Positions 17,805 to 64,000 of a DNA stretch of 64,000 bases are shown here, one piece after another (the stretch's first letter is position 1; each line of letters opens with the position of its first letter). The position numbers were made by a program, and so were the translations under genes. The notes below the pieces were generated by a model. It saw only the letters and a list, made by a program, of their open reading frames with translations. It was not told the DNA's origin and ran no database searches. Source of the stretch: Candidatus Neomarinimicrobiota bacterium (GTDB lineage Bacteria; Fidelibacterota; UBA2242; B5-G15); contig JACDNV010000010.1 of the NCBI GenBank assembly GCA_017656425.1, positions 1-64,000 on the forward strand. Reading direction: 5' to 3'.

Positions 17805-18179
17805 GTCGTCACGAGGAGCGAGTAATACGAGCGACGAAGTGATCTGTTCTGCTAAGTTTGAAGGCATTATGGATTGTGTTTCTACATTCAGACTGATTGA
17901 TGCTCTTTCAAAGCAGATTGCTTCGCTTACGCTCGCAACGACGGGTGTGAGTATAGATTGCTTCGCTTACGCTCGCAACGACGGGTGTGGGTGCAGATTG
18001 CTTCGCTTACGCTCGCAACGACGGGTGTGGGTGCAGATTGCTTCGCTTACGCTCGCAACGACGGGTAAGTGGGTAGGCTGCTTCGCTGACGCTCGCAACG
18101 ACGGGTGTGGGGCGACACCTGCCATGTCATTGCAAGGAGCGAACGCCAGTGAGCGACGTGGCAATCTAAACTGAAAAAT
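17805..18179. repeat. Palindromic repeat block, copy A (375 bp)
   Basis: GC-rich block in AT-rich surroundings. It opens with an imperfect hairpin (TCAC 17809-17812 against GTGA 17839-17842). A unique-looking 70-base spacer follows, then five 40-bp tandem units, then a second hairpin (ATTGC 18129-18133 against GCAAT 18161-18165). It ends CTGAAAAAT. Copy B at 18535-18829 matches it nearly base for base except for two fewer tandem units (375 minus 295 equals 80). Confidence 0.9.
17915..18114. repeat. Five 40-bp tandem units in copy A
   Basis: The string AGATTGCTTCGCTTACGCTC recurs at an exact 40-base period (starts 17915, 17955, 17995, 18035). A diverged fifth unit starts at 18075 with GGCTGCTTCGCTGACGCTC. 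Each unit can form a TTGC/GCAA hairpin. It resembles a shortened reverse complement of the flanking hairpins, so all are one repeat family. Open frames through the array are periodic artefacts. Confidence 0.9.
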
Positions 18180-18183
18180 CAAC

Positions 18184-18465
18184 CTAACTGTAAAAATCCA
18201 TCCACTCAGGATTAACGCTATTTATAAGATCTATCTTCTTCCTTCTTGACCCTGCTTTTATCTGCTTCTCCCTTGAAATGGCATCAATCGGATTTTCATA
18301 AATCTCATAGTAAACAAGCTTGTTTATATTATATCTTTTCGTAAATGTGCTTCCAATACCAACCTTATGCTCATAAACTCTAACTTTTAGATTATTTGTA
18401 ACACCTGTATATAATACCGTATTATTTTTATTTGTCATTATATATACGTAATAAAGCTTTTGCAT
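18184..18465 (-). CDS. GIY-YIG nuclease family protein between repeat copies
   Basis: 93 aa, the usual size of stand-alone GIY-YIG proteins (COG2827/UPF0213). The catalytic core is present: YYVYIMTNKNNTVLYTGVT (the GIY and YIG strands), Arg in NNLKVRVYEHK, and Glu in AISREKQIKAGSRRKKIDLI; it ends NPEWMDFYS. The cellular substrate of this family is unknown. The gene starts 70 bases from repeat copy B and ends five bases from copy A, so repeats enclose it tightly. This suggests that the nuclease and repeats form one unit. Confidence 0.88.
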   Translation of the reverse strand: MQKLYYVYIMTNKNNTVLYTGVTNNLKVRVYEHKVGIGSTFTKRYNINKLVYYEIYENPIDAISREKQIKAGSRRKKIDLINSVNPEWMDFYS

Positions 18466-18534
18466 TTTTTATTATACCTTTTGATTATTGTATTACATTT
18501 TTTAAAATAATCAATATTAATTTTAATCCTACCA

Positions 18535-18829
18535 GTCGTCACGAGGAGCGAGTAAAACGAGCGACGAAGTGATCTGCTCTGCTAAGTTTGAAGGCATTAT
18601 GGATTGTGTTTCTACATTCAGACTGATTGATGCTCTTTCAAAGCAGATTGCTTCGCTTACGCTCGCAACGACGGGTGTGAGTATAGATTGCTTCGCTTAC
18701 GCTCGCAACGACGGGTGTGGGTGCAGATTGCTTCGCTTACGCTCGCAACGACGGGTGTGGGGCGACACCTGCCATGTCATTGCGAGGAGCGATCGATAGT
18801 GAGCGACGTGGCAATCTAATCTGAAAAAT
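18535..18829. repeat. Palindromic repeat block, copy B (295 bp)
   Basis: Direct-repeat partner of copy A, in the same orientation: same opening hairpin, same spacer, three 40-bp units (starts 18645, 18685, 18725), same closing hairpin (ATTGC 18779-18783, GCAAT 18811-18815) and same CTGAAAAAT end. The few differences are concentrated in the hairpin loops, for example GAACGCCAGT in A against GATCGATAGT in B. Confidence 0.9.
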
Positions 18830-18872
18830 TGAGGACAGTATGGAAAAGCAACCCATAGCTGTTACTGGAACA

Positions 18873-18964
18873 CTCTTTCAAAGCAGATTGCTTCGCTTAC
18901 GCTCGCAACGACGGGTAAGTGGGTAGGCTGCTTCGCTGACGCTCGCAGTGACGGGTAGGGGCAG
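18873..18964. repeat. Partial repeat copy C
   Basis: Starts with CTCTTTCAAAGCAGATTG, the spacer end found in copies A and B. It then has two 40-bp units (starts 18885 and 18925). The second is the diverged AAGTGGGTAGGCTGCTTCGC type seen in copy A but absent from copy B. The hairpin ends are missing and a decayed further unit (CAGGTTGCTTC) follows. The rest of 18965-19106 shows no gene. Confidence 0.8.
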
Positions 18965-60335: not shown

Positions 60336-60843
60336 CAAAAATTAATTAAAAATGTGGAGTGTAGAATTAAGGATTAGAAGAAAAGTATATTTTCTAATTG
60401 CCTGTTATTCCAAATTTAATAACTGCACATTATTCATTTTCAATCTATAATTGAAAAAGGTTGTGGGTTCTCTCATGGGATCTTCGGGTGGGTTTTTTGA
60501 TCCCTTCTGAAGATATTACAACTCTACAGGTAAAGTTACAGTTTAGATATTGTTTGGATGGGATGTGATATATGTTATAAGGAGTCAAGAGTGATATATA
60601 TAAACTGGTCAGATCAATTACATTAACACATTAATTATCATGTGTACTCAGACTTAATGATACAGGATTGATTATCTCTATATGTTCAATGTTACCATAA
60701 TAAATTAAAATTTTAATTATGAAAGACTTATGGAATATAATTTCTGCGATAGCTGTGCTTTTTTAATTGCCACCTTTAAATCAATCGATTTTATTGCTCT
60801 CTATTATATGCATGGTTTTTCAAATAAATTAACAAAAAAATCC
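60336..60843. other. AT-rich gap before the peptide operon
   Basis: No gene found. At 60477-60514 two mutually exclusive helices are possible: GGGATC (60477-60482) with GATCCC (60499-60504), or ATCTTC (60480-60485) with GAAGAT (60509-60514), with six T residues at 60493-60498 in the loop. It may be a terminator or a chance structure. Confidence 0.35.
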
Positions 60844-60870
60844 TTGACAAAAAAAACAGTTTAGTAAAAT
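60844..60870 (+). promoter_or_regulatory. Candidate sigma-70 promoter of the peptide operon
   Basis: A perfect -35 TTGACA (60844-60849) and -10 TAAAAT (60865-60870), 15 bases apart, slightly short of the ideal 17. A GC-richer leader of about 110 bases follows before the peptide gene. Confidence 0.5.
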
Positions 60871-60937
60871 TAATTCAAGTTATAAAGGGGCAGAGAAAAT
60901 TGTGGGGATGTGGGTTGGCGTTATATGAAACTATGAT

Positions 60938-60956
60938 GTCGGATTAATAGTCCGAC
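60938..60956 (+). promoter_or_regulatory. Leader hairpin before the peptide gene
   Basis: GTCGGA (60938-60943) pairs with TCCGAC (60951-60956) around a 7-base loop in the 5' leader, 15 bases before GGAGGG. Without a T run it is not a terminator; it may stabilise the mRNA of a highly expressed peptide or control its translation. Confidence 0.5.
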
Positions 60957-60983
60957 GGAAAAAAGAGAGAGGAGGGATTAGTC

Positions 60984-61187
60984 GTGAAAAGATTAGTATT
61001 CATTCTATTCCTAATTTTGTTATTATCGTTTACGTTTGTACCATTATCAAATGCTTGGGTTGCTATGAGTGTTGCATTGAAACTACCTGATCCAATGAGT
61101 CAACTTGGATTTGGAATGGTAGGTGTTTATTGGGGTTATGTAGCAGGCCTAGCCTCCGGTTTGGCAGGAGCAATTGTTGCAGCATAA
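60984..61187 (+). CDS. Small secreted Gly/Ala-rich peptide, bacteriocin-like precursor
   Basis: 67 aa from GTG at 60984 behind GAGGAGGG. Residues 1-24 form a Sec-type signal (MKRLVFILFLILLLSFTFVP, then LSNA). Cleavage after SNA would give a 43-residue mature peptide starting WVAMSVALKLPDPMSQLGFG and ending YVAGLASGLAGAIVAA. It is nearly uncharged, hydrophobic and Gly/Ala-rich, without Cys. The AxxA/GxxxG-rich end recalls circular bacteriocins of the gassericin A type, which also end in Ala-Ala, though those are about 58 residues. A SpoIIM-family gene and ABC transporter genes follow. Confidence 0.7.
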   Translation: MKRLVFILFLILLLSFTFVPLSNAWVAMSVALKLPDPMSQLGFGMVGVYWGYVAGLASGLAGAIVAA

Positions 61188-61729
61188 TTATAGCAAAAAA
61201 ATCCTTTTTAGTAAAAATTATTAAATTAAGTTTTAGAACAAGAATTTGTTTTGCCTTTCTGCTGTTCGCTTTTGGATTATTAGTAAGTGGGTTTATTAAA
61301 ATAGGTATTCATGAAGATTTAGTAATTCAGAAAAAAATTGATATTAATAGTAATACTCTGTTTGTAAGAATTTTTGTTAATAATTTATTAGTAATACTGA
61401 TCAATATTTCGGGATGCTATATATTTGGATTAACTCCAATATTTTCACTTATTTCCAATGGATTTTTTATAGGATTCTGGTTAAAATTTGCCATGTTAAA
61501 TATCGAAAACTGGCACATTTTTTTATTAAAAAAATTTATGCCGCACAGTATTGAAATCATTGGGATCATATTAAGCGGAGCAATTGGTATAAAGGGAGTA
61601 AAAAGATTCTACATAAAAAGTTTCAATCCATCTATTGAACTAACGGAGAGTAAATTTGAAATAATTTTTTCAATATTAATAATTACACTATCAGCTTTAA
61701 TCGAGGCTTATGTATCTGCAAAATTATAA
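61130..61729 (+). CDS. SpoIIM/DUF95 family membrane protein
   Basis: Up to 199 aa, about five membrane helices. It shows the SpoIIM pattern FVRIFVNNLLVILINISGCY, NGFFIGFWLKFAML and PHSIEIIGIILSGAIGI. DUF95 members are hallmark proteins of circular bacteriocin clusters (for example As-48C), needed for production and probably maturation. The only canonical start is TTG at 61130, deep inside the peptide gene, and its first 18 residues (GLCSRPSLRFGRSNCC) do not look like this family. True initiation could be at ATA 61184, which overlaps the peptide stop as ATAA. Confidence 0.75.
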   Translation: MGLCSRPSLRFGRSNCCSIIIAKKSFLVKIIKLSFRTRICFAFLLFAFGLLVSGFIKIGIHEDLVIQKKIDINSNTLFVRIFVNNLLVILINISGCYIFGLTPIFSLISNGFFIGFWLKFAMLNIENWHIFLLKKFMPHSIEIIGIILSGAIGIKGVKRFYIKSFNPSIELTESKFEIIFSILIITLSALIEAYVSAKL

Positions 61730-62303
61730 GGATTTATTTGGTAAACTTTTGGACAGGTATAAATACTTCGGTATCTTATTTCCTATTTTAGTTTCTATGT
61801 TATCTATTATTAATGTTGCTCTTATTTCAGGAAAGATTAGAAGTGCTCAATTCGATTATTATTTTAAACCTTTTTTCTACATTACAATATTTAACATACC
61901 CTTTACTATTCTTATTCTGTGGTTACTTATGACGTCTCTCTTGAATTTCATTGATAATATTTTGATGCAATTAGACGAAGAAAAAAATTTCTCCAGGCTT
62001 TTTCTGGGGATTGGTTACGGTTTCATATTTTTCTTTCTTTCTCAATTTTATACTTTTTACCTGTTCAAATTTAAAATTGGTGACATTTTAGAAATAAATG
62101 GTTTGACCGGATTGGTTAGTCAATATGGATTTAATAAAATAAATACAATTGCGTTTTTTCTTTTTAGCCTGTGGTGTGTATTTATAAACAGAATAATTTA
62201 TAGAACAAAAATATATATAGACGTTTTGATATTGGTTCTTATTAATTCTTTGTATTTCTTCCTAAGTTTATTACGATCATTATGGCAAAATACATTAAGT
62301 TGA
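61710..62303 (+). CDS. Multi-pass membrane protein, unknown
   Basis: 197 aa with about five hydrophobic helices (YFGILFPILVSMLSIINVAL, FYITIFNIPFTILILWLLMT, GIGYGFIFFFLSQFYTFYLF, TIAFFLFSLWCVF, ILVLINSLYFFLSLLRSLW). The arrangement weakly recalls YIP1-type proteins, but I would not assign it. It overlaps the SpoIIM gene by 20 bases and the next gene by 22, so it belongs to the peptide operon; immunity or export is a reasonable guess. Confidence 0.65.
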   Translation: MYLQNYKDLFGKLLDRYKYFGILFPILVSMLSIINVALISGKIRSAQFDYYFKPFFYITIFNIPFTILILWLLMTSLLNFIDNILMQLDEEKNFSRLFLGIGYGFIFFFLSQFYTFYLFKFKIGDILEINGLTGLVSQYGFNKINTIAFFLFSLWCVFINRIIYRTKIYIDVLILVLINSLYFFLSLLRSLWQNTLS

Positions 62304-62779
62304 TTATATATTGCATTAAATATAATCTTAGAAAAAATTACAACAATGAAACATTCTTTGATTCATTTTACAGAAATTTGATATTTTACTCGACATGGAT
62401 AACTGTAGTATTTATGCTGTATTTGTTTAAGGTATATAATAGATCACTTCTTCAGATATTTATTTATGCATTGATAATTTTTATAATATTCTTACTGAAT
62501 AGATGGAAATCAAAATCTCTTCGTTTACCATTTATATCCATAGCGTTTCTACCTAAAGGTAAAAGGTTTTTAATATTTTACGAAATATTAATTAATATAT
62601 TTTCGCTATCTTTTATTTCAAGTGCTTTAATTTCTCTTTTATTTCCTCTGTATAACGACATCCCCTTTTCCCTTTTATTAATAATATTAGCCAATGTAAT
62701 TTCTATAACTACATTAGTCATAAGGAGAAAGTCCGAAGGATCTCTTTTGAGAAATGAAATTTATAGATTTTATTATTAA
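62282..62779 (+). CDS. Membrane protein, possible ABC-2-type permease subunit
   Basis: 165 aa, four helices (LIFYSTWITVVFMLYLFKVY, IFIYALIIFIIFLLNRW, LINIFSLSFISSALISLLFP, FSLLLIILANVISITTLVIR). Between helices 2 and 3 the segment KSLRLPFISIAFLPKGKRFL resembles the coupling region after the 'TKSRSIAFWLTVPYGFHYIF' pattern in the next protein. This suggests the two are divergent permease subunits. The family is not identified. Confidence 0.6.
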   Translation: MAKYIKLIIYCIKYNLRKNYNNETFFDSFYRNLIFYSTWITVVFMLYLFKVYNRSLLQIFIYALIIFIIFLLNRWKSKSLRLPFISIAFLPKGKRFLIFYEILINIFSLSFISSALISLLFPLYNDIPFSLLLIILANVISITTLVIRRKSEGSLLRNEIYRFYY

Positions 62780-63464
62780 GGAAACACATAGATGTAATTA
62801 TCTTAGAAAATCCTATTATCTTATGATGGTATTATTACTTTTTCTGATTTCAATGGGTATATTAAAAGTATTCACTCCACTTTTAACAAGTTTACCCGAG
62901 GAGATTGTTGTCTGTATGTCTCCTTTTATCCCGTACTCTATCTGCCTTTTTTTATTTAATACGTTTTTACCAACAAAATCAAGGTCGATAGCTTTCTGGC
63001 TAACAGTGCCATATGGATTCCATTATATCTTCAGGAGATCGTTTTTATATTCTCTTATTATATACTCTTTATTTTCTTTATTATTAGCTTTATTGTGGGG
63101 TTTTTCTTCCTATATATGCATAAGTACTCTGATTATATATAATATCTGGCTTTTTTCCTGCCTGGTTTTGATTGTTTATTTACAGCCAATAGATCCGTAT
63201 AGCAAATTATTTTATAAATTAAATTTCAGGATTGCCGGGTATAATCTTTTGAATTCATTTCCAGCAATTTCATATATGTATTCTGTATATCTTTTGATTA
63301 TGTTAAAAAAAGAGACTTTAGAGGTATATCTAAATAGATATGAAAGTGCAATAATTGTGTCATTGTTCTTATTTTCTATACTGAATACTTATCTAATCTT
63401 ACTTTTATCAAGAAAGTATGTATTAAACAACAAAAGTAGAATATTTGTGAGGATGAAATTATGA
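62754..63464 (+). CDS. Membrane protein, probable ABC permease subunit
   Basis: 236 aa, about six helices. A cytoplasmic N-terminus (KFIDFIIKETHRCNYLRKSY) precedes the first helix. TKSRSIAFWLTVPYGFHYIF lies between helices 2 and 3, where ABC-2 permeases contact the ATPase. Its stop overlaps the start of the ATPase gene by four bases (ATGA), which makes it the likely channel partner. Confidence 0.65.
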   Translation: MKFIDFIIKETHRCNYLRKSYYLMMVLLLFLISMGILKVFTPLLTSLPEEIVVCMSPFIPYSICLFLFNTFLPTKSRSIAFWLTVPYGFHYIFRRSFLYSLIIYSLFSLLLALLWGFSSYICISTLIIYNIWLFSCLVLIVYLQPIDPYSKLFYKLNFRIAGYNLLNSFPAISYMYSVYLLIMLKKETLEVYLNRYESAIIVSLFLFSILNTYLILLLSRKYVLNNKSRIFVRMKL

Positions 63465-64000
63465 TAAGTTTGTCAAGTCTGTATTATAAAATTGGAAATT
63501 TTGAATTAAAGATACCTGAGCTAATTTTTGCAAAGGGTAAGATATATAAAATAAAAGGTGGGAATGGCTCCGGGAAAACAACGCTACTCAGACTCATATG
63601 TGGATTATATAGACAAAACTCTGGCAGAATTGAAATCTTCGGAGCAAGCAATCAAGATGAAAATTGGTTATATAGGGCAGGAATATACTTGGACGAAAGT
63701 TTCCTGATTGACTATTTGACTCCTCTTGAGTTTCTAAATTTTAAGGGTTTATTTTATAAAATAAAACCAGTAGTAATAGATAAATTTTCAAACGAAATTA
63801 ATGAATCCATTTCATATAAGCTTTTTTCTAACGAGAAACTAATAAGGGAATTGTCGCAAGGAAATAAAAAGAAAGTTGGTATTTACTCTTCATTTATGCA
63901 CGATCCTGAAATATTAATCTTCGATGAACCATTTGAAGGGCTGGATGAAAAAGGACGGTTTCTCTTGATTAAATTATTAAGTGAAAAAATTTGCGATAGA
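63461..64000 (+). CDS. ABC transporter ATP-binding protein (partial)
   Basis: 180 codons from ATG at 63461 to the window end, no stop reached. Walker A GGNGSGKTTLLRLICG at residues 33-48, signature ELSQGNKKKVGIYSSFM near residue 131 and Walker B EILIFDEPFEGLDE are intact. It should power export of the peptide by the preceding membrane proteins, or self-protection against it. The C-terminal part lies outside the window. Confidence 0.92.
   Translation, partial: MISLSSLYYKIGNFELKIPELIFAKGKIYKIKGGNGSGKTTLLRLICGLYRQNSGRIEIFGASNQDENWLYRAGIYLDESFLIDYLTPLEFLNFKGLFYKIKPVVIDKFSNEINESISYKLFSNEKLIRELSQGNKKKVGIYSSFMHDPEILIFDEPFEGLDEKGRFLLIKLLSEKICDR

Follow-up and report, generated by a model that had tools for sequence, protein, structure and literature searches.

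The uncultured, double-membraned bacterium investigated here carries a foreign-looking operon whose probable product is a very short peptide, exported and active on membranes. We hold, with moderate confidence, that this peptide is a short, hydrophobic, SpoIIM-dependent bacteriocin that the operon makes, exports and protects against. The operon lies at the end of the window (i.e., the whole stretch of 64,000 nucleotides that was analyzed) and consists, in this order, of genes for a precursor peptide, a SpoIIM/DUF95 protein, the membrane proteins P3, P4 and P5, and an ABC ATPase. A scan of public genome contigs yielded one relative, contig QNBN01000143.1 (hereafter L003), from a Guaymas MAG that its own record labels “Spirochaetes bacterium B62_G9.” It holds the same six genes in the same order, followed, as in the genome studied here, by the end of a ZIP transporter gene. 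Two copies of the operon are known in all.

Organization of the operon

The features of the locus, with positions in the window, are as follows:

60833..60983, + strand: 5' region, left edge of the homologous block (the blastn block begins at 60833)
60984..61187, + strand: gene of the 67-aa precursor peptide (Sec-like leader of 24 aa, neutral hydrophobic core of 43 aa)
61056..61405, + strand: divergent cassette (core, short gap and the first ~60 SpoIIM residues), 65-77% identity to L003
61196..61729, + strand: SpoIIM/DUF95 membrane protein (PF01944 domain at 61253-61717; start codon not settled)
61710..62303, + strand: membrane protein P3, 197 aa (Yip1-like below threshold in the window and in L003)
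62282..62779, + strand: membrane protein P4, 165 aa, basic (pI 10), without family match
62754..63464, + strand: membrane protein P5, 236 aa, without family match
63461..64000, continuing beyond the end of the window, + strand: ABC transporter ATPase (PF00005)

A preliminary description of this DNA had placed three membrane proteins and an ABC ATPase downstream of the SpoIIM gene, and this was borne out: the ATPase matches PF00005 (E 1.5e-20) and is 214 aa long when complete in the genome (L002 7462-8106), ending at contig base 64105. The same description had every gene overlapping the next, which holds from SpoIIM through the ATPase (by 20 bases for SpoIIM/P3, 22 for P3/P4, 26 for P4/P5, and 4 for P5/ATPase), but for the precursor and SpoIIM genes hinges on an unclear start codon (see below).

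In profile searches P3 to P5 gave no significant family match, permease families included, and their profile comparison with the gassericin permease, with two or three sequences per profile, was uninformative. P3 resembles Yip1 (PF04893) below the cut-off in both copies (E 0.097 in the window and 0.12 in L003), and its AlphaFold model had a pLDDT of 47; Yip1 proteins have often been reported from circular-bacteriocin clusters (PMC8534725, PMC8659200). P5 is a possible permease partner of the ATPase and P4 a possible immunity protein or transporter subunit. P4 is basic and hydrophobic, yet with 165 aa larger than a dedicated small immunity protein, and the operon has no second small ORF that could represent a dedicated small cationic hydrophobic immunity gene.

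The precursor peptide

The 67-residue precursor with a Sec-like signal and an Ala-Ala end, as originally described, is present at 60984-61187. Its ORF has a GTG start with GGAGGGAT upstream as Shine-Dalgarno sequence. The 24-aa leader, MKRLVFILFLILLLSFTFVPLSNA, resembles a Sec signal: it contains Lys-Arg and a long run of hydrophobic residues, and Ser-Asn-Ala precedes Trp25. As read from the sequence, S-N-A fits the -3/-1 rule of signal peptidase, and the precursor is presumably cut after Ser-Asn-Ala or after Asn. Cleavage after SNA would leave a core of 43 aa in the window and 44 aa in L003 (whole precursors 67 and 68 aa). The cores contain one basic residue in the window and none in L003, and their GRAVY values of 1.11 and 1.01, respectively, compare with 1.00 for the circular cores of subgroup ii.

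That the precursor is a real gene follows from L003, where the ORF is likewise uninterrupted and its leader nearly the same; conservation of the small ORF alongside the membrane genes had been set beforehand as a check, and the second genome indeed keeps both. A search of the phylum with a precursor profile returned, besides the window, only low-scoring stretches (up to 17.9 bits), most of which sit inside long or stop-interrupted frames. Searches of Pfam, NCBIfam and PHROGs with the precursor gave no significant match, the circular-bacteriocin families included. A GTA holin match (E 0.11) was treated as noise. Profile comparison with three PF12173-type (gassericin A-type) precursors aligned 23 columns around the end of the leader (E 0.068), with no profile support across the core.

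The helical bundle that had been anticipated for the peptide did not appear in structure prediction. AlphaFold, with two sequences behind the model and the core modelled as a linear chain, gave one short helix (residues 2-9) and one long helix (13-42) that form no saposin bundle (pLDDT 74, pTM 0.35), and this model had no match in the PDB at E<=10. Such a two-helix hydrophobic model would suit a linear secreted bacteriocin, from which signal peptidase removes the leader and whose unmodified core is active, SpoIIM and the ABC transporter serving for immunity or expulsion only. The fit of S-N-A to the signal peptidase rule and the lack of a gene for a processing enzyme in the operon point the same way, but in published bacteriocin clusters SpoIIM is bound to the circular class (PMC13289728, PMC5695211), and we consider a linear product unlikely.

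The SpoIIM protein and its start codon

The assignment of the second gene to SpoIIM/DUF95 in the preliminary description is firmly supported: in the search of the window it matched PF01944 with E 3.6e-14 and 53.4 bits, twice the cut-off score (26.9). The same protein matched with E 2.3e-14 in the search of the genome, and the L003 copy with E 1.1e-14. The family is broad and was also matched in several well-known genomes, e.g., those of Bacillus subtilis and Methanocaldococcus jannaschii. Relatives of this SpoIIM were found neither in viral contigs nor in plasmids, where one weak match was returned (E 0.04), and a profile comparison of the two SpoIIM sets, with two or three sequences per profile, was uninformative.

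The start of the gene (61184-61230; L003 4232-4273) has no standard start codon common to both copies. In the window the sole option in frame is TTG at 61130, inside the precursor gene. In L003 a TAA stop lies in this frame downstream of the equivalent point, so that either the shared start is non-standard or the two copies start differently; at L003 4271 a TTG stands in place of the TTA of the window. The gene might start at an ATT and be coupled to the precursor. Residue numbers of SpoIIM are counted here from base 61226; residues 1-60 reach from the first membrane segment across the first loop into the beginning of the second segment.

Probable horizontal acquisition, and the host

The operon looks horizontally acquired, as indicated by three lines of evidence. 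Its G+C content is 27.7%, against 35-37% around it. SpoIIM exceeds the cut-off in only 1 of 245 genomes of the phylum, namely this one; a search of the phylum for P5 gave nothing convincing. Finally, the operon block is 93% identical between the window and L003 (blastn), whereas flanking DNA is only 68% identical. To the left of the operon L003 carries genes that we take, from general sequence knowledge, to encode MutS, a porin-like protein and NFACT, and this block recurs in the genome studied here in the same order, at that lower identity, on another contig with different neighbors.

The L003 contig is possibly misassembled, with its right part derived from a close relative of our organism, since the join adjoins a dispersed repeat and the end of the ZIP gene agrees to 99.5% with that of this genome. 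The arguments from G+C content, distribution and mosaic structure are independent of this join. The repeat in question (L003 3617-3865) lies just left of the operon and has several partial copies in this genome, one of them near a contig end. Another repeat family, both dispersed and tandem, occurs downstream of the ZIP gene at L002 9168-9541 (contig 65167-65540) and also at 17890-18955 of the window. Further along, a phosphoketolase (XFP) gene (L002 9655-12027; contig 65654-68026) lies between the operon and a set of CRISPR-Cas genes for Cas6, a TM1802-type large subunit, Cas7 and Cas5 (L002 12212-16473; contig 68211-72472).

The host had been taken for a Gram-negative-type bacterium, and five Omp85 matches in its genome indicate that it has an outer membrane. 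An exported peptide must therefore cross this membrane or act from the periplasm.

A divergent block spanning the core and the SpoIIM N-terminus

The similarity of the two copies is uneven. At the nucleotide level the leader is 92% identical to L003, the core 65%, the gap 76% and SpoIIM residues 1-60 77%, after which identity returns to 96% for the rest of SpoIIM (from residue 61) and 97-98% from P3 to the ATPase. The core has a dS of 0.64 and a dN of 0.46; dS is 0.79 for SpoIIM residues 1-30, 0.22 for residues 31-60, and 0.04-0.11 in P3-P5 and the ATPase. Fisher's test on the divergent block gave p 4e-44, a descriptive value as the block was picked after looking. Because synonymous divergence itself differs so strongly, selection on the protein is not the whole reason, and an exchanged segment is the simplest account of the divergent block. 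Throughout the divergent part the frame is open, with PDPMSQ, G-x-YW and VAG kept, and the gene is therefore under constraint. Seven codons near the end of P4 (62732-62752) are absent, in frame, from the L003 copy.

The divergent block suits an exchanged specificity cassette, and its extent suggests that SpoIIM residues 1-60 contact the peptide, although linkage alone could yield the joint divergence of the core and the SpoIIM N-terminus, the cassette being contiguous. A leader that is kept beside a core that varies would be expected of competition peptides. Peptide signals and their receptors, however, also typically pair a variable core with a partner that varies along with it, and the operon might accordingly encode a secreted signaling peptide (pheromone) with its exporter and a receptor-like membrane protein, for which the Sec-like leader would be suitable too. 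We regard this as very improbable, as the operon contains no gene for a sensor kinase or regulator, and the core is long and strongly hydrophobic.

The same comparison bears on the idea that the peptide is no bacteriocin but stays in the membrane, as a small subunit of an envelope complex of SpoIIM and the ABC transporter or as its regulator. The strong hydrophobicity of the peptide and the breadth of the SpoIIM family would agree with this. Such a subunit would, however, be expected to be conserved like its partners, while the core is the least conserved part and the proteins partnering it are 94-96% identical between the copies; the operon is, moreover, rare and foreign in composition. This makes a membrane subunit distinctly improbable.

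The 5' region upstream of the precursor was also thought to carry a promoter-like site and a leader hairpin of its own. For the promoter, TTGACA (60844) and TAAAAT are indeed present, but they are separated by a 15-nt spacer, and promoter-like sites were not enriched there in a consensus scan. The leader hairpin is not conserved, with -10.3 kcal/mol (z -2.65) in the window and -1.9 kcal/mol in L003, and was dropped as a regulatory element because of its absence from the second copy. Positions 60893-60982 form a variable 5' untranslated stretch (68-88% identity to L003); the exchange may have involved more than one piece, or this stretch may be free to drift. It includes a GT-rich sequence (GTGGGGATGTGGGTTGGCGTTATATGAAAC) followed by a strong hairpin, in a single copy in the window.

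Proposed function

A bacteriocin role of the operon is supported by the exchange of the core together with the horizontal transfer. The genes, the SpoIIM domain, the second copy, the foreign composition and the mosaic are observed facts; that the peptide is antimicrobial, where it is cut, that SpoIIM recognizes it and that it becomes circular we infer, and these inferences could be combined as follows. The Sec-like leader would thread the precursor into the inner membrane, where it would be cut after Ser-Asn-Ala (or after Asn). SpoIIM, P3-P5 and the ABC ATPase would then process the core, export it or neutralize it, and perhaps also close it into a ring. Recognition of the particular core would fall to SpoIIM's first membrane segment and loop, hence their divergence along with it, and the operon would spread between bacteria with an exchangeable core-plus-recognition cassette. 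Cyclisation of the core is plausible but falls somewhat short of probable, and gains a little if the product is a bacteriocin.

Knocking out the DUF95 gene of leucocyclicin Q led to intracellular accumulation of the circular peptide, while circularisation of garvicin ML stopped on loss of biosynthetic genes (PMC6131525). In view of these results the role of SpoIIM may be transport and protection rather than joining.

A bolder reading, which we think rather unlikely, is that the two copies represent a new class of SpoIIM-processed peptides in uncultured outer-membrane bacteria, with a two-helix core that at 43-44 aa is much shorter than in all circular bacteriocins and is circular or otherwise processed by SpoIIM, and with the core and SpoIIM N-terminus exchanged as one cassette. 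SpoIIM counts as the protein that defines the class of circular bacteriocins. If this reading is true, it would indicate the first membrane segment and loop of SpoIIM as the peptide-recognition site, a long-open question for this group. The two copies, 96-98% identical downstream of the divergent block of core and SpoIIM 1-60, form a natural experiment, in which swaps within this block would test which part of SpoIIM reads the peptide.

Comparison with known bacteriocins

The preliminary description had called the locus a circular-bacteriocin-like cluster. The SpoIIM protein and the conserved small ORF uphold this likeness, whereas “circular” itself is backed neither by a family match nor by a bundle in the AlphaFold model nor by a core of known length. 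The cluster shares with the circular class a SpoIIM/DUF95 protein and a small precursor adjoining it whose leader is presumably cleaved. It differs by the lack of a match to a described family, by a core outside the range of 58-70 aa if the presumed cut site is right, and by the lack of a polybasic region, which is present in all circular bacteriocins but butyrivibriocin AR10 (PMC7132975). Since several defining features were tested and did not apply, we do not yet file it as a circular bacteriocin, although it may function like one.

The closest resemblance is to subgroup ii (gassericin A, plantacyclin B21AG; PF12173), in which SpoIIM likewise comes directly after the precursor, with an ABC ATPase and a permease behind it, and which has a hydrophobic leader and a neutral hydrophobic core of similar hydropathy. 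Two SpoIIM proteins from plasmid loci, those for gassericin A and plantacyclin B21AG, match PF01944 more weakly than ours (E 3.3e-6 and 4.3e-8, respectively). The Asn beside the presumed cut and, in the window core, small C-terminal residues with a final Ala are also alike (PMC8659200). Different are the core of 43-44 aa instead of 58 without a PF12173 match, the 24-aa Sec-like leader, the extra membrane proteins P3-P5, the position of the ATPase as the last gene, and the host with an outer membrane. Furthermore, conservation here lies in the leader and variation in the core, whereas published circular families keep the core and vary in the leader (PMC8659200).

A true circular bacteriocin, with residues 25-67 joined from W25 to A67 as in gassericin A, would be a narrower form of the bacteriocin explanation favored above. 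The precursor-SpoIIM-ABC layout, the hydrophobic core ending in Ala and an Asn close to the presumed cut, which subgroup ii also has (PMC8659200), argue for it. Weighed against a core shorter than the known 58-70 aa (PMC7132975) and without polybasic stretch, predicted helices that form no saposin bundle, and a core without profile support, it is a tentative possibility that we tend to doubt.

Subgroup i (AS-48, cerecyclin, pumilarin) also combines SpoIIM, an ABC ATPase and several membrane proteins, and Yip1 has been reported from many clusters (PMC8534725, PMC8659200), which P3 resembles below threshold; its cores, however, are longer and cationic.

Members of the lactococcin 972 group have a precursor with a Sec signal, a membrane immunity protein and an ABC ATPase. 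The operon shares the Sec-type precursor, a membrane protein and the ATPase with them; it differs in that its peptide has no match to the lactococcin 972 family, SpoIIM is present, and its ATPase scores 69.9 bits with the lactococcin 972 model TIGR03608, below the cut-off of 254.85.

The SpoIIM-based clusters found in the literature come almost exclusively from Firmicutes; a few actinobacterial ones and single cases in Novosphingobium and Thermotogae are reported as well (PMC5695211, PMC8534725). SpoIIM-based bacteriocin operons are a known kind, and what is new here is the combination of a short core, an exchanged cassette and an uncultured host lineage with two membranes.
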